A program made the translations under genes and the position numbers. Positions 1,700-11,730 of a stretch of DNA of 64,000 bases are shown piece by piece. The first letter of the stretch is position 1. Every line of letters starts with the position of its first letter. The stretch lies in NCBI RefSeq assembly GCF_023555375.1, contig NZ_JAJSEE010000003.1, positions 186,001-250,000 of the forward strand. The letters run 5' to 3'. The notes under the pieces were generated by a model. That model was not told the origin of the DNA. It searched no databases and saw only the letters and a list, made by a program, of their open reading frames with translations. Origin of the DNA: Guyparkeria hydrothermalis. GTDB taxonomy: Bacteria > Pseudomonadota > Gammaproteobacteria > Halothiobacillales > Halothiobacillaceae.

Positions 1700-4600
1700 A
1701 TGCGGACAGAAAGGAAAGTCGACGCGATCGTATTCGACTGGCTCCGTGAGGGGCTGGAGGAGCGGCTCGCCGAGCTCTTGAGGGCGCTGGAGCAGCTTTC
1801 CGAGGGCGAGAACGTCACCGAGCATGTCTTCGACGCCACCCAGGCGCTGCAGACCATCGACCGCGTTTCTTCCATGGTGGACATCCAGCTCGCGCGGGTG
1901 CTGGTGCGCACCCAGATGGCCGCCCTGGAGCCGCTCGAGGAGCACTCGAACGAGTCGGACGACGGCGACCGGACCGCCATTTCCGCGCAGATCGAGTCCG
2001 TCGCATTGCTTCAGGCGCTGCTCGACCGCATGGCCGCCGGTGCCGAGATCACGCCGGCCAGCCTGCTGCCGATGGTCAACCGCCTGCGCAGCACCCTCCA
2101 GCAACCCCCGCTCGACGCGCGCGAAATGGCTGCGCGTGCCTTCCTGTTGCAGGCCGAACACGAGCTCGGCAAGCGTCCGCACCGCGAGAAGGGCGTCGAC
2201 GAGGAGGCCGAGCTCCGGCCGCTGCTGCGGCGCATGGAGCGGGAAGTGCTCGCGGTCATGCGCGACGACTGGTCGGTGCTGCCGGGTCTGCGCGAGCTGT
2301 CGATGGAGATCATCGCGCACGAACCCAGCCGCAGTGCCATCATCGCCATTCGCGTGGTGGGTGAGCTGCTCCGCCTGACCGAATCCGATCCGGACCGCTA
2401 CGCGCCGGTACTCAAACGTGCCGTGGGGCGCGTCCTGCAGCTGTTCCGCTTGCAATTGCAGGGGCGCAGCGAGTCGGTGATCAACCACGCCGGCCTGGAT
2501 CTGGGCGCCTCGGTGCTGCTCTCGCTCCTGGAACGTGTCGACGATGACGAGATCATCTGTCGGGATCCGGCCGCCGAGTGGCGCGCCCAACTGGACGCCG
2601 CCGATCGGCCGGCCCGTTTCGTCGGCCTGGATGCCGAGGCCCTCGAGGCCGTTCGGCAGGCGCTGGAAGAGGAACTGCTTGCCACCCAGGACGTGCTCGA
2701 CCTGTTCGTGCGGGGCAAGCGCGATGACCTCGAACCGCTGGGACGGATCCTGAGCAAGTTCGAGCAGATGAGTGGCGTGCTCCACACCCTCGGCTATTCG
2801 GCGGCCGCCGCCTCGCTCGAGGCCGGTCGGGAGCGCCTGCAGGCTGTCACCCGCGGCGCCGAGTTGCTCGACGACGACATGCTGATGGACCTGGCCGGCA
2901 CCGTGATGCTCGTCGAGCAGGTCATCGACGGCATCCCGCGCAGCATGGCTGATGGCGATCGGGCCGAGGCGTTGCACGACCAGACGGTGGCCAGCTCGAT
3001 CGGCGCGATTGCCAGTGCGGCGTTCGAATCGCTGAGCGAGTCGCGCGAGAAGATCAATGCCGGCCTCGCCGGGCAGGGCGACGGGGAGGCCCCCGCCAAC
3101 GACCCGTTCGCCCAGGCGGCCGACAAGCTCACCGGCATCGGCGAGGTGCTTCGCCTCTCCGGTCGCGATGCGGCCACACCGCTGGTCATGGCACTGGCTC
3201 GCTGGAGCCGCGCGCAGACCTTCGGTGAGCCCGTCGGCGATGAACACACCCTGTCGGCCCTGAGCGAGATCTTCGCGGCACTGGAGTTCTATCTCGAGAA
3301 CCTGCGCGACTTCGGCAAGGAAATCGCGCGTTTCCTCGAGGCGACCAAGCGCCGTATCGACGATCTCGTCGCTGGGATTGACGAGTCGACCGAGGCCGTC
3401 AGCACGGACGAGGCGGACGCGAGCGATGAGGCCCCGCCGGAAGAGTCGGCGTCGGCCGCGACTGCCCCGACGGTTTCGGACGAGGAGAGCGCCCCCGAGC
3501 CGGTCGACGAGAGCCTCGCCACGCCAGACGAGTTGATCGAGTTCTGGCAGGTCGAAGAGGACGAGTTGGCCACGGATGTTCCCGAAACGGCGGATGCCGC
3601 CGGCAGCGAGACCGTCGAGCCGATCGAGGCCGAGGGTGCCGACGAATCAAGCGGCGAGGAACTGGAGTCGGCGCTGGACTTCGCCCTCGACGAGGGCGAG
3701 GAGGAGCAGCGGGCGGCGCCATCCGAGGCGGAGGACCTGCCCGACCTGCCGGAAACCGTCGAACAGGCGCCGGTCACGACCGACGCCCCGGCGGATCTCG
3801 AGAACCTGAGCCTGCCGGAAGACGAGGTCTCGACTTCGGAGACAGACGAGGCACAAACGTCCGCGTCGGATGCCGAGGCATCGGCCGACATGGACGAGGA
3901 GCAGGCGCTGGCATTGCCCGACGACGAGGTCGCGACGTCAGATGTCGAGCAGCCTGACGAGTCGCCGCTCGACCGTGACGAGGATCTGGAGTCCCTGGGC
4001 GAAGCGGACGGCTCGGATGAGCGGCTGGACGAGGATGAGGAGAAAGCCAGCCCATCGTCGACCGAGACAGACGCCGTGGCGTTTGCCGAGGCCGAGGAAG
4101 AGGGCGCGACGGAGCTCGAGTCGGCGCTGGACTTTGGTCTGGCCGAGGACCAGGACGAGTTGCGTGACGAGGGCGCGCCGGCGGACGAGGCGGGTCCCAT
4201 GGTCGACCTGCCGGATCAGCCGGTAACGGCACCCGAGGAAACGGGCGTGTCCTTGGCCGAGGCGGGCGACACGCTCCCCGAGACCGAGACCGAGACGCCA
4301 ATCACGTTCGAGGAAACCGACGGCAATGACGACGAACGCCACGCTGTCGACGAACCGGAGACGCTGAGCTTCGACGAGGCGGAAGCCGAATCCTCGTCGG
4401 AACTCGAGGCGGCGCTCGATTTCGGTCTTGCCGACGACCAGGACGAATTACGCGCCGACATGGCCGCGGCCGATGACGAGGCGGGGGTCGACCTGCCCGA
4501 CGAGGTCGTCGAGGCCCCTGAGGTGCCCCAACAGACCGGTGCCGAATCCCCGGCGGGTGAATCCGAGGTCACGACCCAATCCGAGACGGCCGCCGAGTCG

Positions 4601-7600
4601 GACGACGACCCGATGATGGCGGAGATGCGCGAGGTCTTCGCCGAGGAAATGGCCGAGACGGTGCCCGAGATGGCCGAGGCCGCCAAGACCTGGCTCGCCG
4701 CCCGGGACGCCGAGGCACTGGTGAGCCTGCGTCGCGGTTTTCACACCATCAAGGGCAGTGGCCGGATGGTGGGGTTGGACAGCATCGGTGCCTGGGCCTG
4801 GGGCTGGGAAAACCTGCTCAACCAGGTGATCGACGGCAAGCGTGACGACACCGATGCCACGCGCCAGGGGGCGGCCAACGCGGTCGCCCTGATGCAAGCG
4901 GCCCTGCCCGACCTCGAAGCGGGGCAAGCCACGCCCGAGTCGCACTGGTCCGATTCCCTGCGCCTGGCAGAACGCCTTGAAGCGGGCGAATCCGTCGAGA
5001 CGCCCGCCCCATCCGTTGAGGTCGGTGCCGAGTTGGCGGTCGAGTCGGGCGCGACCGAATCGACAGATGCCGTCGAGGTTGAAACCGACGAGGCAGCAAC
5101 CGAACTGGTCGAGGCCGAGTCGCCCGCCCCGGTGATCGAGGACCCGGTGCTGCGCGAGATCTTCGACCAGGAGATCGGTGGCTACATCGACGAGTTGCAT
5201 CGGGAGATCGAGGCCGCGCGCGACCATGGCGTCGGCCTGGCCTGCGACAACGACCTGGTGCGTCTGCTGCACACCACACTTGGCTCGGCGCGTACCGCCG
5301 GTGTCGACATCATTGCCGCCCTGGCCCGCTATCTCGAAGACTGGACGCGGGTGCTCGCCGAGCATCAGGAGCGCCTTGGGGGCGACGACCTCGCCCTGTT
5401 CGCCGAGGGGGCCGACGCGATCGAGGCGCTGCGCCGCTGGGCGGTCGACCCCAGCCTCGAGCAACCCGACACCACGGATCTCGAGCAGCGCCTGGATGCC
5501 CAGCTCCAGCAGGTGCTGGCCGACTACGGCGAGGTCACCGAAAGCGCCGAGGCACGCGATTCCCGTCAGGCGGAAGCGACCGAATCGATGCCGGATGCCG
5601 ATCAGGCCCGCGACGAAGATGACGAGGTTGCGGCGCCGGACGGGACGGAGGCGGCCGACGACACGGCCGAGGCCCAGGACGCCGAGCGCGCGTCGGGCGA
5701 CGCCCTGGACGTGAGCGCGGACGATCGGGACGCTGATGCCACCGACGCCGACGAGGCGGCGGATGACTCCGAGCCGGACGACGGGGCACCCGAGACGGCC
5801 GCCGAGTCCGAGGAAGATGACGAAGGCGAGGACTACGCCGACATCGAGCATCGCCCCGACGATGATCCGGCCGAGCAGGACGAGGACATCCTGCAGATCT
5901 TCCTCGACGAGGCGGACGAGCTGCTCGAGCAGGCCGACGCCTACCTGGCGCACTGGCGGGTGCACCCGCACGACCTCGAATCGATCCGGCTGCTGCATCG
6001 CAACCTGCACACCCTCAAGGGCGGTGCGCGCATGGCCGGGCTGCTCAACCTGGGCGATGTCGCGCATCACCTCGAGGGTCGCCTTGACCTGGCACGTCGC
6101 GACGAATCAACCGACAACGAGCCCCTGGTTGCCCTGGTCCAGCACAGTTACGACGTGATCGCCGGGCTGCTCGACCGCGTGCGCAACCAGCAGCCGATTC
6201 CCCAGCAACGCGAACTGATTGGCTGGATCCGCGACCCGGATGGCGCGCGCCGCTTCGCCGAGCGTAGCCAGGGTAGCGAGCCGGTCCGCCGGGACGAATC
6301 GGCCGAATCGCCGGCGCCGGCCGAGGCGGTTGCCGAGGCACCCGCCGACACGCCGAGCACGCCGCCTGCCTCCGCGCCGGCCGAGGCCGGTTCGGGCCCG
6401 GCTCAGGAGGGCGGGGCCGAGCGGCGCGACGAGCAGGTGCGCGTTGCCGCCGGCAGCATCGATGCGCTGGTTAACCAGATCGGCGAGTCGGTGCTGCTGC
6501 AATCTCGCATCGACCGTCAGGTCAACGGCTTCGAGCGCCAGCTGTTCGAGCTCCAGCAGACCGTCACCCGCCTGCGCAGTCAGTTGCGTCGGCTCGAGAT
6601 CGAGACCGAGACGCAGATCAAGGCCGACTTGATGGAAGAGGCCGGGATCAGCGAGGAGCAGTTTGATCCGCTGGAATTCGACCGCTTCACCCAGGTTCAG
6701 GAACTCTCGCGCGGCATCATGGAATCGCTGGGCGACGTGGCCAACATCGAGGAGAGCCTGAGCTCGCTCACCGAACAATCGCAGCTCCTGCTGCTGCAGC
6801 AGTCGCGCCTGGGTCGGAAGATGCAGGACGGCGTGCTCGCGATGCGCCTGGTGCGATTCAACGACGTTGCCGGTCGCCTGCGCCGCATCGTGCGCCAGGT
6901 GGGCGACGAGATGGGGCGCCAGGCCGAGCTGGTGATCGAGAACGGCGATGCCGAGGTCGACCGGGTCACCCTGATGGCCATGCTGCCGTCGCTCGAGCAT
7001 ATGCTGCGCAATTCCATTGCCCACGGCATCGAGTCGCCCGAGGAGCGTCGCGCCAACCACAAGCCGCCCGTGGGCCAGCTGCTGCTCAATATCGACAGTG
7101 GCGGCGGCAACATCACGGTGAGCCTGCGGGACGACGGGCGCGGGCTCGATCTGGATGCCATTCGTCGCAAGGCGATCGAACGCAGCCTGATCCCGGCCGA
7201 TATCGACGTCAGCGACGAAGAGGCCCGCTCGCTGATCTTCCTGCCGGGCTTTTCCACCGCCGGCAATGTCTCCCAGGTCGCCGGTCGCGGGGTGGGGATG
7301 GACGTGGTCGCGAGCGCCACGCGAGAACTCGGCGGTTTCGTCGACGTCGACTCCGAACAGGGCCGTTACACCGAGATCCGCCTCAACCTGCCGCTGACCC
7401 AGGCGATGACCCGCGGCATCCTGATCGCCAGCGGCGACGACCGCTACGCGATCCCCTACAAGGGCGTGGTGGCCGTCACGCGCATGACCGGCGTGGCGCT
7501 CGCCGAGCACTACCGCGAGGAGAAACCGCAGATCGAGTACGAGGGGGAGCATTACCCGCTCTACTACCTCGGCGAACTCCTCTGGGGGCAGCCGCCGGCC

Positions 7601-8323
7601 GAGACGGCACAGGACGTCGCGGCCATCCGGCCGATCATGCTCTTCAAGCTGGGCGAGCGGCGTTTCGCCCTGCACGTGGATCATCAGCTCGGCGGCATCC
7701 AGTTGTTCGTCAAGTCGCTGGGCCCGCAGCTGGGCCGGATTCCCGGGCTTTCCGGGGCCACGATTGCCGACGACGGTGACGTGATCCTGGTCCTCGAGCT
7801 GTTCGAGCTGGTCCAGCAATTCCAGCGTCGCGACTACCAGCGCCGTCTGGGCGCGCAGGCCGCCGTCAAGCCGGTGCGAGCCCGCCCGGCCGTGCTGGTC
7901 GTCGACGACTCGCTCACCGTGCGCAAGGTCACGGCGCGCACACTGGAGCGCAACAACTACGATGTCGTGCTGGCCCGTGATGGTGTCGAGGCCCTCGGCC
8001 TGCTGCAGGACAGTCTGCCGGACCTGGTGCTCACCGATATCGAGATGCCGCGCATGGACGGCTTCGAGCTGCTCGGCGCGATCCGCAACGACCGCGCGGC
8101 GGCCGACACGCCGGTGATCATGATTTCCTCGCGTACCGGCCAGAAGCACCGGTCCCGCGCCGAGGCGCTCGGCGTGTCCGCCTATCTCGGCAAGCCGTAC
8201 ACGGAGCTCGACCTGATCGACACCATCGAGCGCCTGCTGCCGGCACGCCCGGTCGCGGGTGAGGAGGTCACGAGCGAGGCGGAGCCGGGAAATCCGGAAG
8301 CGGGTGACGCGCATGCCGACTGA
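1700..8323 (+). CDS. chpA: ChpA/PilL-type hybrid chemotaxis histidine kinase
   Basis: Cytoplasmic kinase of the twitching-motility chemosensory system, 2207 aa. The N-terminal ~400 residues are helical and FimL/ChpA-like. Long Asp/Glu-rich linkers cover about residues 560-960 and 1320-1400. Histidine phosphotransfer motifs lie near His1015 (HTIKGSGRM), His1191 (HTTLGSARTAG, where the usual Lys is Leu, so probably degenerate) and His1437 (HTLKGGARM). The kinase core follows: N-box near 1765 (MLRNSIAHG), DDGRGL near 1811 and GRGVGMDVV near 1863. A CheW-like domain and a C-terminal receiver (VVDDSLTVRK, phospho-Asp about 2113) end the protein. The ATG at 1700 has AGGCGGTG upstream. P. aeruginosa ChpA is of similar size but carries more Hpt-type domains. 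Receptor and adaptor genes flank it. Confidence 0.95.
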   Translation: MRTERKVDAIVFDWLREGLEERLAELLRALEQLSEGENVTEHVFDATQALQTIDRVSSMVDIQLARVLVRTQMAALEPLEEHSNESDDGDRTAISAQIESVALLQALLDRMAAGAEITPASLLPMVNRLRSTLQQPPLDAREMAARAFLLQAEHELGKRPHREKGVDEEAELRPLLRRMEREVLAVMRDDWSVLPGLRELSMEIIAHEPSRSAIIAIRVVGELLRLTESDPDRYAPVLKRAVGRVLQLFRLQLQGRSESVINHAGLDLGASVLLSLLERVDDDEIICRDPAAEWRAQLDAADRPARFVGLDAEALEAVRQALEEELLATQDVLDLFVRGKRDDLEPLGRILSKFEQMSGVLHTLGYSAAAASLEAGRERLQAVTRGAELLDDDMLMDLAGTVMLVEQVIDGIPRSMADGDRAEALHDQTVASSIGAIASAAFESLSESREKINAGLAGQGDGEAPANDPFAQAADKLTGIGEVLRLSGRDAATPLVMALARWSRAQTFGEPVGDEHTLSALSEIFAALEFYLENLRDFGKEIARFLEATKRRIDDLVAGIDESTEAVSTDEADASDEAPPEESASAATAPTVSDEESAPEPVDESLATPDELIEFWQVEEDELATDVPETADAAGSETVEPIEAEGADESSGEELESALDFALDEGEEEQRAAPSEAEDLPDLPETVEQAPVTTDAPADLENLSLPEDEVSTSETDEAQTSASDAEASADMDEEQALALPDDEVATSDVEQPDESPLDRDEDLESLGEADGSDERLDEDEEKASPSSTETDAVAFAEAEEEGATELESALDFGLAEDQDELRDEGAPADEAGPMVDLPDQPVTAPEETGVSLAEAGDTLPETETETPITFEETDGNDDERHAVDEPETLSFDEAEAESSSELEAALDFGLADDQDELRADMAAADDEAGVDLPDEVVEAPEVPQQTGAESPAGESEVTTQSETAAESDDDPMMAEMREVFAEEMAETVPEMAEAAKTWLAARDAEALVSLRRGFHTIKGSGRMVGLDSIGAWAWGWENLLNQVIDGKRDDTDATRQGAANAVALMQAALPDLEAGQATPESHWSDSLRLAERLEAGESVETPAPSVEVGAELAVESGATESTDAVEVETDEAATELVEAESPAPVIEDPVLREIFDQEIGGYIDELHREIEAARDHGVGLACDNDLVRLLHTTLGSARTAGVDIIAALARYLEDWTRVLAEHQERLGGDDLALFAEGADAIEALRRWAVDPSLEQPDTTDLEQRLDAQLQQVLADYGEVTESAEARDSRQAEATESMPDADQARDEDDEVAAPDGTEAADDTAEAQDAERASGDALDVSADDRDADATDADEAADDSEPDDGAPETAAESEEDDEGEDYADIEHRPDDDPAEQDEDILQIFLDEADELLEQADAYLAHWRVHPHDLESIRLLHRNLHTLKGGARMAGLLNLGDVAHHLEGRLDLARRDESTDNEPLVALVQHSYDVIAGLLDRVRNQQPIPQQRELIGWIRDPDGARRFAERSQGSEPVRRDESAESPAPAEAVAEAPADTPSTPPASAPAEAGSGPAQEGGAERRDEQVRVAAGSIDALVNQIGESVLLQSRIDRQVNGFERQLFELQQTVTRLRSQLRRLEIETETQIKADLMEEAGISEEQFDPLEFDRFTQVQELSRGIMESLGDVANIEESLSSLTEQSQLLLLQQSRLGRKMQDGVLAMRLVRFNDVAGRLRRIVRQVGDEMGRQAELVIENGDAEVDRVTLMAMLPSLEHMLRNSIAHGIESPEERRANHKPPVGQLLLNIDSGGGNITVSLRDDGRGLDLDAIRRKAIERSLIPADIDVSDEEARSLIFLPGFSTAGNVSQVAGRGVGMDVVASATRELGGFVDVDSEQGRYTEIRLNLPLTQAMTRGILIASGDDRYAIPYKGVVAVTRMTGVALAEHYREEKPQIEYEGEHYPLYYLGELLWGQPPAETAQDVAAIRPIMLFKLGERRFALHVDHQLGGIQLFVKSLGPQLGRIPGLSGATIADDGDVILVLELFELVQQFQRRDYQRRLGAQAAVKPVRARPAVLVVDDSLTVRKVTARTLERNNYDVVLARDGVEALGLLQDSLPDLVLTDIEMPRMDGFELLGAIRNDRAAADTPVIMISSRTGQKHRSRAEALGVSAYLGKPYTELDLIDTIERLLPARPVAGEEVTSEAEPGNPEAGDAHAD

Positions 8324-8855
8324 AGGACAGCAAGCAGCCATGGCACAGCAAGAAGAACGGCCCATCGACGAGACGGCAATCCGTGCCGTCCGTCTGCCCA
8401 CGCAGTTGATCGATCTCGAACTGCTGGTGCCCTACTCGTTGATCGCCGAGATCACCGACGTCTCCCTGCCTGAAGGCAGCATCCGACTCGGACGCAGCGA
8501 GGCGACCATGGTCAACTGGCGAGGCCAGCGCGTGCCGCTGGTCAGCCTGGAGGCGATGAACGGCGAATCCCTGCCCACCATTGGGCGGCGGGTGCGCTGC
8601 GCGGTTCTGTACGGCACGGACCCCGAACGGGCCCTGCCGTACTACGCGTTGCTGCTGTCCGGCGTGCCGCGCTCGGAGCAGGTCGAGCGTCGCCAGATCG
8701 AGTCAGCCGGTCCGCAGGACAACCCCCTCTGGCGCGAAGTGGTGCGGATTGGCGGACGTCTTACCGCGATTCCCGATATCCGGGTTCTCGAGGAACGCAT
8801 CGATCAGATGCGGCTCGGTCAGGAGGAGGCCGCGGAGGAGCCGCCCGGCGACTAA
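8313..8855 (+). CDS. CheW-like adaptor protein of the Pil-Chp system
   Basis: Predicted CheW-domain adaptor of 180 aa coupling PilJ to ChpA. The sequence shows the CheW-type β-rich fold with a VPYSLIAEITDVS segment, NWRGQRVPLVSLE, and a hydrophobic C-terminal strand ending in an acidic tail. The ATG at 8313 overlaps the end of chpA by 11 bp, indicating translational coupling. A second in-frame ATG at 8340 is also possible. An upstream extension to 8259 reads through chpA in another frame and is rejected. By position it is the counterpart of ChpC of Pseudomonas. There is no chpB methylesterase gene. A strong terminator follows within 35 bp. Confidence 0.85.
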   Translation: MPTEGQQAAMAQQEERPIDETAIRAVRLPTQLIDLELLVPYSLIAEITDVSLPEGSIRLGRSEATMVNWRGQRVPLVSLEAMNGESLPTIGRRVRCAVLYGTDPERALPYYALLLSGVPRSEQVERRQIESAGPQDNPLWREVVRIGGRLTAIPDIRVLEERIDQMRLGQEEAAEEPPGD

Positions 8856-8886
8856 TCCCGCCTTGCCCGTGATCGCCGCAACGAGA

Positions 8887-8916
8887 AAACCCGGCACGCT
8901 AGCGTGCCGGGTTTTT
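8887..8916. terminator. Bidirectional intrinsic terminator between chp operon and btuM
   Basis: Perfect 14-bp inverted repeat (AAACCCGGCACGCT / AGCGTGCCGGGTTT) followed by a T run on the plus strand and TTTTCT on the minus strand. It lies between the convergent ends of the CheW-like gene and btuM, so it can stop transcription from both sides. Confidence 0.92.
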
Positions 8917-8944: not shown

Positions 8945-9556
8945 TTAGCCGTGGCGGCGCACCCGAGCTCCCTCGCGGAGGGTATTGATCAGCGCCATGC
9001 CCGCCAGCGCGATGGCGCTGTAGGTGGCGGCGCTGGTCAGGTAGCCGCCCAGGTAGGGCAACGTGCGCGTGGCGTACTCGACGGCTGCCATTTCACCGAA
9101 CTGGCCGGAGAAGGCGTAGAACGTGACGTTGGACAGGCCAAAGGCCACCGCGCTGCCGACGATGATCCCCCCGGCTATCCACGCCAGTTGGGCGGGGAGG
9201 GTCGCCACCGTCGTCGCTCGCTTGCCGACCAGGCGCCCCACGCCCCAGAGGGCGGCATAGGCGGCCAGTACGCCCGGGTAGGCGGGAGAGAAGCAGCTGG
9301 CCATCGCCGCACCATCCAGCCATACGCTGCCCAGGTCGATCACGACGGCCAGTGCCAGCAATCCACCCAGCACGCGCACCTGCCGGAACCACAACCCCGC
9401 CAGGAAGAAGACCGCCCAGGAGGTGTCCGCCAGGTGCAGCGCCGAGCTGAAGTGGTGGTAGCGCGTGGCGAGCATCGAGACGGCCATGACGGCAAGTGCC
9501 GCGATGGCGACGAGCCGGCTGGCCGGGAAGAGTCGTTCGTCGATGGGATGGGGCAT
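8945..9556 (-). CDS. btuM: BtuM-like solitary cobalamin transporter (ECF S-component family)
   Basis: Predicted inner-membrane protein of 203 aa with about six hydrophobic segments and no signal peptide. It lies directly downstream of btuB on the same strand, 39 bp away, and so falls under the same cobalamin riboswitch. No BtuCDF genes are visible. Size, topology, the HHFSSALHLADTSWAVFFLA segment in the N-terminal half and a single cysteine (Cys88, in AAMASCFSPAYPG) fit BtuM, a solitary ECF-type S component that works without an ECF ATPase module. In Thiobacillus denitrificans BtuM a cysteine at a similar position (Cys80) ligands cobalt. The family call rests on recalled features and context rather than alignment. 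The alternative is an uncharacterised membrane protein co-regulated with btuB. Confidence 0.68.
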   Translation of the reverse strand: MPHPIDERLFPASRLVAIAALAVMAVSMLATRYHHFSSALHLADTSWAVFFLAGLWFRQVRVLGGLLALAVVIDLGSVWLDGAAMASCFSPAYPGVLAAYAALWGVGRLVGKRATTVATLPAQLAWIAGGIIVGSAVAFGLSNVTFYAFSGQFGEMAAVEYATRTLPYLGGYLTSAATYSAIALAGMALINTLREGARVRRHG

Positions 9557-9595
9557 GGTCGGATGACGTCCTGAAAGGCCGGGGAAGGCGCTATG

Positions 9596-11446
9596 TTACC
9601 GGCCGTAGCGCAGGCTCACAAACACGCCGCGCGGCGCCTGATGAAAGCCGTCGACGATTTGGTAGTCCCGGTCGAACACGTTATCGACGCGGGCCTCGAT
9701 GCGCCAGTCAGGCGCCAGACGGTAGCTGCCGCGCAGGTCGGCCACCACGTAGCCCCGGTTGTCGCTTTCCGAACCACTGCGCCCGCGCAGGGTGGTGCCG
9801 ATCGAAAAGGCGCCCAGCTGGCGATCGACGGCCAGGCGACCGCTCCAACGGGGTTGCTTCGGCAACGGCTCGCCCGTGGTCTCGTTCTCGGTCGACAGGT
9901 AGGTGAGGCTCGTGTGAGCGGACCAGGTTTGGTTGGTCCAGCGAGCAACGAGCTCCGCGCCGCGAATGGTCGCCTCGCTGACGTTCTCCGGCACGTAGCT
10001 AGGCGGCGGGCTCGAGATCAGATCGTCTGCCGATGAGTGGAAGGCCGTCGTTTCGATGAGCCACGGCCCCTGGCTCCAGGCGATGCCGACGCGCGAGGTG
10101 CGCGTGCGCTCCGGTTCGAGATCGGGGTTTGCCGTCGCGAAACAAAGGCCGGGTGCGAGGCAGTAGGGCGGGTAATAGAGCAGGTTGAAGGACGGCGTGT
10201 TGAACGAGGTGCCGTGCCCCGCGCTCACTGACCAGGCATCGTCGAGTCGATAGGCAAGGTCCAGCGATCCGGTGTTGGCGGTGCCGAATTGCTCGTTGAA
10301 ATCACGGCGCAGCGCGCCCTGGACATCCAGGCGTTCGCCAAGGCGCGTGTTGAGCTGAGCAAACAGCCCCTGGTTGCGCCGGGCTTCCTCGACGTAGTCG
10401 GTCGTGCTCGATAGCTTGTCGACTGTCTGGTCCGCCCCGAGTGTCAGGGTGGTGGATGACCCGAGAAAGAAGTCGTTTGCCAGTGAGAGCGTGTCGCGTT
10501 GCGTGTCGAAACGCGAGTCAAATTGCCGATCGCGGAAATAGTCCTGGTCGTCGATATGCCGACCGGCCCGGGTGCGCAACTGCCAGAAGCCGATCCGGCC
10601 GGTGGAGGCCGACAGGCCGATGGTGCGTTGCTCGATTTCGCTATTGTTGGTCGGGCCGTCGTATTCGACCTCGGCGGAGGCGGCCAATACATGGGCACGC
10701 ACATGCCCCCCTTCGCCGAACCGGTACCCGGCCTGCAGTTGCAGCGAATCGCGTTGGTAGCCGTCGTCGTCCGGCTCGTCCGCGTAACAGGGCGGGGTAT
10801 ATGGGCCGCCGTTCTCGCAGGCATCGAAGCCATCGGTTTCGCGGTGGGCCACGCCCAGCGCATAGTCGAACGCGCCCTGGCGACCACCGATATGGGCGTC
10901 GGCCTCGCGTTGACCGCGGGAGCCGGCGCCGATGCCACCGGACAGATGAGTCCCGTCCGCGGTGCCCTCGCGGGTGAAGATCTGGATCACCCCGCCGCCG
11001 GCATCCGCGCCCCATTGCCCGGAGCGCGGGCCTCGCACGATCTCGATCCGCTCGATCTGTTCCAACGGGATGTGCTCGAGATACGACTGACCGGCGGATA
11101 CCGAGCCGATGCGTACGCCGTCGAGAAAAACCGCCGTCCGGTTGGCACTCTGCCCCCAGATCGACACGCTCGACAGCTTGCCGGGGCCGCCTTCGTTGCT
11201 GACGATCAGGCCGGCGCGTCCAGCCAGCAGGTCCTGCAACGAACGGGACTGACTGCGCTCGATCTCCTCGCGCGTGATCACGGTCTCGGGCATCGCGGGG
11301 GCAATCGCCGGGGCCTCGCGGGCGGCGGTGATGTTGATCGGTCCCAGCCGGTCATCGGCCTGTGACGGGACGAGGGTAAAAAGACAGGTCAGGCCGGTAA
11401 GCCCGGCGGTGAGCGACGACAGTCGCCCGGCGGAAAAGTGCGTCAT
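9596..11446 (-). CDS. btuB: TonB-dependent vitamin B12 receptor
   Basis: Outer-membrane TonB-dependent receptor for cobalamins, 616 aa, the usual BtuB length. A signal peptide (about residues 1-30, ending near SQADD) precedes the plug domain, which has the landmarks ETVITREEIERSQSRSLQDLL, VFLDGVRIGS and IEIVRGPRSGQWGADAGGGV. A long β-barrel with alternating aromatic strands follows and ends in VFVSLRYGR. The 3' half contains the expected barrel repeats and the protein is not broken. Substrate assignment is strong because a cobalamin riboswitch lies in the leader. btuM follows as the probable second gene of the transcript. Confidence 0.94.
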   Translation of the reverse strand: MTHFSAGRLSSLTAGLTGLTCLFTLVPSQADDRLGPINITAAREAPAIAPAMPETVITREEIERSQSRSLQDLLAGRAGLIVSNEGGPGKLSSVSIWGQSANRTAVFLDGVRIGSVSAGQSYLEHIPLEQIERIEIVRGPRSGQWGADAGGGVIQIFTREGTADGTHLSGGIGAGSRGQREADAHIGGRQGAFDYALGVAHRETDGFDACENGGPYTPPCYADEPDDDGYQRDSLQLQAGYRFGEGGHVRAHVLAASAEVEYDGPTNNSEIEQRTIGLSASTGRIGFWQLRTRAGRHIDDQDYFRDRQFDSRFDTQRDTLSLANDFFLGSSTTLTLGADQTVDKLSSTTDYVEEARRNQGLFAQLNTRLGERLDVQGALRRDFNEQFGTANTGSLDLAYRLDDAWSVSAGHGTSFNTPSFNLLYYPPYCLAPGLCFATANPDLEPERTRTSRVGIAWSQGPWLIETTAFHSSADDLISSPPPSYVPENVSEATIRGAELVARWTNQTWSAHTSLTYLSTENETTGEPLPKQPRWSGRLAVDRQLGAFSIGTTLRGRSGSESDNRGYVVADLRGSYRLAPDWRIEARVDNVFDRDYQIVDGFHQAPRGVFVSLRYGR

Positions 11447-11496
11447 GGATGCGGTTTCACGTGACCGACCAGCCCACCGCGGGTCGGGAATGCCGA

Positions 11497-11688
11497 TCAG
11501 AGGCCGGTCTCCGGGCTCGTGGTCGAGGGGATCTCCCCGGCCGGCATCGCCTTCCCGGCCCGGTGGTTTCCCTTGGGCCAGTGGCTACGTGATGCCGACG
11601 TCACCACCTACCGTTGCGGGGGCAGCGCAGGCATTGGACCTGCTTCCCTGTTTCAGTGCCCGCAATGCGTGATCGGGGCACCACCTCT
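11497..11688 (-). promoter_or_regulatory. Cobalamin (AdoCbl) riboswitch upstream of btuB
   Basis: Read on the minus strand, this leader has the conserved pieces of the cobalamin riboswitch in order: GGTGCCC and GGGCACTGAAA pairing at the 5' end, GGGAAGCAGGTCCAATGCC, the near-invariant GCTGCCCCCGCAACGGTA, then GCCACTGGCC, and the B12 box AGCCCGGAGACCGGCCTC at about 11502-11518. It ends about 50 bp before the btuB start. Riboswitches of this class usually shut off btuB translation or transcription when cobalamin is plentiful. Here it should control btuB and probably btuM. Confidence 0.95.
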
Positions 11689-11701
11689 GACGTCGGGGCG
11701 C

Positions 11702-11730
11702 ATTGTTTGCAATTGCTCGCGTAAAGGCAA
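11702..11730 (-). promoter_or_regulatory. Candidate promoter for the btuB riboswitch transcript
   Basis: On the minus strand a TTGCCT (-35-like) is followed after 17 bp by AACAAT (-10-like), just upstream of the riboswitch 5' end. The -10 match is weak, so this is only a candidate. Confidence 0.35.

Follow-up and report, generated by a model that had tools for sequence, protein, structure and literature searches.

Organization of the btuB-btuM locus

The stretch of DNA analysed, referred to here as the window, comprised 64,000 nt of Guyparkeria hydrothermalis (GCF_023555375.1, NZ_JAJSEE010000003.1, positions 186,001 to 250,000 of the forward strand). On its minus strand, in the order of transcription, a cobalamin riboswitch was followed by btuB and, after 39 bp, by an open reading frame encoding a membrane protein of 203 aa that contains a single cysteine, an arrangement that had been described in the original prediction and was confirmed by open reading frames, Rfam and NCBIfam. 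The coordinates and counts given there were likewise correct, except that the aptamer had been ended at 11688 and extends 15 bases further, to 11703.

The aptamer (nt 11485–11703, minus strand) matched RF00174 over its full length (model positions 1–189 of 189), scored 98.7 bits in cmscan (E 1.9e-23; gathering threshold, 31.5 bits), and was the sole gathering-level Rfam match within the window. A second cobalamin match in the genome (contig C5, nt 126496–126646; 25.2 bits, below the 31.5 threshold) was rejected, as it lay antisense within an open coding frame of the opposite strand, the product of which we take to be a UPF0126/TRIC-type channel.

Between the aptamer and the btuB start, a hairpin with a 6-bp stem and an 11-nt loop was located at nt 11465–11487 of the minus strand by reading of the sequence and alignment with relatives; it was nearly invariant in the five close relatives aligned (L037 to L041). 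This hairpin, which we take to be P13, is the probable expression platform and may hide the ribosome-binding region of btuB, which would amount to translational control. Folding of the whole leader RNA showed no extra stability over shuffled sequences (z -0.97); thus, it is the conserved hairpin, by itself, that argues for an expression platform.

The btuB gene (nt 9596–11446, minus strand) encoded a TonB-dependent cobalamin receptor of 616 aa, for which the best NCBIfam model was TIGR01779 (TonB-dependent vitamin B12 receptor); the score of 391.6 bits (E 6.4e-117) did not reach the cut-off set for this model, 599.7. The Pfam domains Plug (PF07715) and TonB barrel (PF00593) were both present. 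The 39-bp spacer (nt 9557–9595) separated it from the 203-aa reading frame (nt 8945–9556, minus strand), which begins with an ATG codon and is designated btuM here for a predicted inner-membrane cobalamin-binding protein with an S-component fold. Downstream of btuM lay a convergent gene (nt 8259–8855, plus strand), and between the two an inverted repeat preceded by an A-run and followed by a T-run was read by eye at nt 8885–8915. The repeat is a probable two-way terminator and, together with the convergent neighbour, would limit the transcription unit to btuB-btuM. It was absent from the list returned by a consensus terminator scan; the promoter and terminator scan gave 0 promoter-like sites and 2 terminator-like sites versus 1.6 expected.

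Elsewhere in the window, nt 1700–8323 (plus strand) encoded a 2207-aa protein in which several Hpt-like regions and a receiver were recognised by eye, followed by a presumably CheW-like gene; we assume that the large protein resembles a ChpA-type chemosensory kinase.

Assignment of the 203-aa protein to the BtuM family

Pfam (E 1) gave zero matches for the 203-aa protein and NCBIfam a chance-level match only. The similarity to BtuM that had been anticipated was borne out when the protein was searched as a single sequence with phmmer against all PDB sequences, 8c7p/8ovv being matched with an E of 2.5e-16 and the next entry with 0.016. A profile of alignment A2, containing the window protein and 80 homologues (81 sequences), retrieved from PDB only BtuM 8c7p/8ovv (E 1.2e-64; next match 0.23). 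The same entries, titled as tagless BtuM with cyanocobalamin and hydroxycobalamin, were found by Foldseek (E 1.5e-06). Their chain is probably BtuM of Thiobacillus denitrificans, since H28, D67, Cys80, Y85 and R153 occupy the positions given in PMC6072759.

Cys88, the only cysteine in the protein, fell in register with Cys80 in the phmmer alignment to 8c7p, as had been expected, and H35, D74, C88, Y93 and R164 stood opposite H28, D67, C80, Y85 and R153 of the solved chain; according to PMC6072759, the pocket residues H28, D67, Y85 and R153 were mutated in addition to Cys80. The predicted model had a mean pLDDT of 92.8 and was superimposed by VIA-align on 8c7p with a Z of 20.2 and an rmsd of 2.5 over 176 residues. 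After BtuM, the closest structures were TmRibU (11.7), RibU (11.0), ThiT (10.9) and BioY (10.8), with FolT and CbiM also within the range of Z 8.4 to 11.7. The ECF S components RibU, ThiT, BioY and FolT thus share the predicted fold, but only 9 to 15% identity, with the 203-aa protein.

On sequence and predicted structure, the 203-aa protein is a member of the BtuM family with a predicted S-component fold. It shares with T. denitrificans BtuM 32% identity over the aligned fold, the S-component fold itself, the cobalt-ligating cysteine and the pocket residues, as well as a linked btuB, a cobalamin riboswitch and a host without EcfT/CbiQ. In a survey of 40 genomes, including its own, a BtuM match was found in 19, and in 18 of these 19 btuM was preceded by a riboswitch on the same strand of its contig; in the single exception (G008), btuM was cut by the contig start. 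This recurrence indicates that the linkage of riboswitch and btuM is beyond chance.

Cobalamin uptake and utilization

The btuB-btuM pair very probably forms a riboswitch-controlled cobalamin uptake unit in which BtuM carries cobalamin across the inner membrane without an ATPase, with Cys88 on cobalt and with intracellular sinks for the cofactor. BtuB with TonB would bring cobalamin across the outer membrane. By analogy with the characterized protein, BtuM would bind it from the periplasmic side in the base-off form with Cys88 as the cobalt ligand, could strip cyanide from cyanocobalamin, and would move the corrinoid through the inner membrane with no ATPase. MetH and an unlinked PduO-type adenosyltransferase, standing in for BtuR, may act as sinks keeping the flow inward, and plentiful cobalamin would cause the riboswitch to close the btuB leader. 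That BtuM alone would carry B12 through the inner membrane follows from what was reported for the T. denitrificans protein (PMC6072759); according to PMC11109136, it is still unclear by what means a solitary S component transports a large cofactor without ATP. Speaking against this explanation are the missing BtuR, the BtuB score below the curated cut-off, the presence of MetE, and the modest score of the PduO-type enzyme.

The genome (2,433,989 bases in 9 contigs, 99.91% complete) contained six FecCD matches in three places and two Peripla_BP_2 matches. One set, on contig C4, comprised FhuC, FhuD, FhuF and a FhuB that exceeded the cut-off of one model, along with a FauA/FhuE-like receptor; another, at 329–331 kb of contig C1, was Fec-like and accompanied by a FecA-like receptor. 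Neither of the two binding proteins had a BtuF match at E 1e-5, and by their sequences the two importers resemble the Fhu and Fec systems for iron. The weak FecCD matches at 438–440 kb of contig C1 were rejected as BtuC candidates, belonging to an ABC-3/ZnuA (Zn/Mn) metal importer. No BtuCDF-like system was recognised among the FecCD and Peripla_BP_2 matches of this genome, the best models being FhuB/FecC, FhuD/FecB and ZnuA/ABC-3, in agreement with the original prediction of uptake without BtuCD. BtuCDF, an ABC importer, does the same job behind BtuB, and in relatives devoid of BtuM the corresponding locus contained genes resembling btuF or btuC, which served as positive controls: in G012 and G016, of the same family, the riboswitch and btuB were followed by a protein resembling BtuF (133.4 and 141.9 bits, respectively), with BtuR confirmed in G012, and in G025 by a permease with BtuC as its best model (238.6 bits).

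These data bear on the possibility that BtuM acts chiefly at the periplasmic face, where it would bind cobalamin and serve as a decyanating enzyme, cobalamin itself being imported by the Fec-like ABC system or by a transporter of the SbmA/BacA type. The Fec-like set is complete, is of the same superfamily as BtuCDF, and has permeases that also match BtuC models at about 165 to 194 bits. However, its best models are FhuB/FecC/FecE/FecB, it is accompanied by a FecA-like receptor and lacks a cobalamin riboswitch, and its binding protein gave no BtuF match at the threshold at which the btuB neighbours of BtuM-less relatives did. Furthermore, PMC6072759 describes rescue by BtuM of E. coli growth without BtuC and BtuF, and import by such another system is considered unlikely. 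Still less probable is that BtuM works as the S component of an ECF module that was missed; its predicted fold is that of S components, but no CbiQ/EcfT-family match was obtained in this nearly complete genome by a PF02361 profile search, in which 10 of 14 controls gave a match, and the negative outcome for EcfT/CbiQ is that expected from the original prediction. That the 203-aa protein is an unrelated membrane protein merely lying behind btuB would fit the lack of a model for it in the curated Pfam and NCBIfam libraries, but is refuted by the PDB profile search (E 1.2e-64), opposed by the fold, the pocket and the conserved linkage, and can practically be dismissed.

Regarding the fate of the cofactor under uptake through BtuM, CbiC was not found in the genome, so de novo synthesis of B12 is unlikely, and the gene content suggests that B12 is probably imported rather than synthesized by the organism. 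Only one match to the B12-binding domain was over the cut-off, in a 1243-aa frame also possessing the MetH activation domain and thus corresponding to MetH. MetE was encoded as well, and B12 is therefore probably useful, but not essential, for methionine. MetH was present in all 19 BtuM-bearing genomes and also in 15 of the 21 without BtuM, for which reason it was discarded as a predictor of BtuM, being a weak one.

BtuR (PF02572) was detected neither in the window nor in the genome; a PduO-type adenosyltransferase unlinked to btuM was identified with TIGR00636 at a modest 120.4 bits versus a cut-off of 108.45. This differs from T. denitrificans BtuM and the usual btuM context, in that the present genome has no linked btuR and no BtuR-family enzyme, an unlinked PduO-type enzyme being found instead. 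In most hosts btuM co-localises with btuR, and BtuR has been proposed as a trap, according to PMC6072759. BtuR was encoded within the fetched flanks of 55 of 80 named BtuM loci and in those of 0 of 14 loci of the Halothiobacillaceae clade; in one of these 14 (L045), the sequence following btuM is a single base long. A tentative proposal, somewhat less probable than its opposite, is that BtuM uptake in the Guyparkeria/Halothiobacillus clade is uncoupled from BtuR, with cobalamin pulled by MetH and/or the unlinked PduO-type enzyme. If this is true, the clade would represent a natural experiment on the driving force of transport by solitary S components.

BtuM homologues in related bacteria

From 324 relatives obtained from a collection of named genomes, 80 loci were kept for comparison, the nearest being those of a Halothiobacillaceae MAG (83%) and Guyparkeria sp. 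SCN-R1 (78%). In an alignment of 95 homologue rows, consisting of the window protein, the 80 loci and second copies, the cysteine column held C in 94 rows and A in one, and all five pocket residues were kept in 81. A tree of 93 of these rows placed the window protein within a Halothiobacillaceae/Thioalkalibacteraceae clade. The protein is thus a further member of a known family, with the missing BtuR as a modest twist. The locus adds a well-supported case of BtuM in sulfur-oxidising Gammaproteobacteria, in a family unrecognised by Pfam and NCBIfam models, and the clade without linked BtuR, together with lineages possessing tandem pairs, offers comparisons for ideas on trapping and oligomers. 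The more novel material is found in the relatives and consists of btuM genes arranged in tandem and of a homologue lacking the cysteine.

The latter homologue (L116, nt 5959–6507, plus strand) was encoded by an intact frame in a MAG and had Ala at the site of the conserved cysteine; a riboswitch motif of its own immediately preceded the gene, and no btuB was found there. It is a natural counterpart of the C80A mutant of T. denitrificans BtuM, which, according to PMC6072759, lost cobalamin binding and retained cobinamide binding. In three Nitrospira/Nitrospiraceae MAGs (L082, L086 and L087), no btuB ended within 1.5 kb upstream of btuM, which was near BtuR-like and PduO-like genes.

A tandem btuM pair behind btuB, with a BtuR gene, was observed in 11 of the 13 Lysobacteraceae/Rhodanobacteraceae loci among the 80 kept (L051, L053, L055, L066, L075, L079, L094, L098, L108, L109 and L115); the remaining two (L090 and L112) had a single btuM. 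First and second copies formed two separate clades, suggesting that the pairing is old; the cysteine was kept in both, and Trp47 was replaced by Met in all 11 first copies. The tandem arrangement suggests either a hetero-oligomer formed by the two copies or a separate corrinoid specificity for each. Among publications on BtuM and tandem arrangement, as judged from titles and the beginnings of abstracts, none was about tandem btuM. The gene was also in tandem in two Nitrosomonas loci (L070 and L111), and a gammaproteobacterial MAG (L058; contig 38 of G033) possessed two btuM copies about 4 kb apart.
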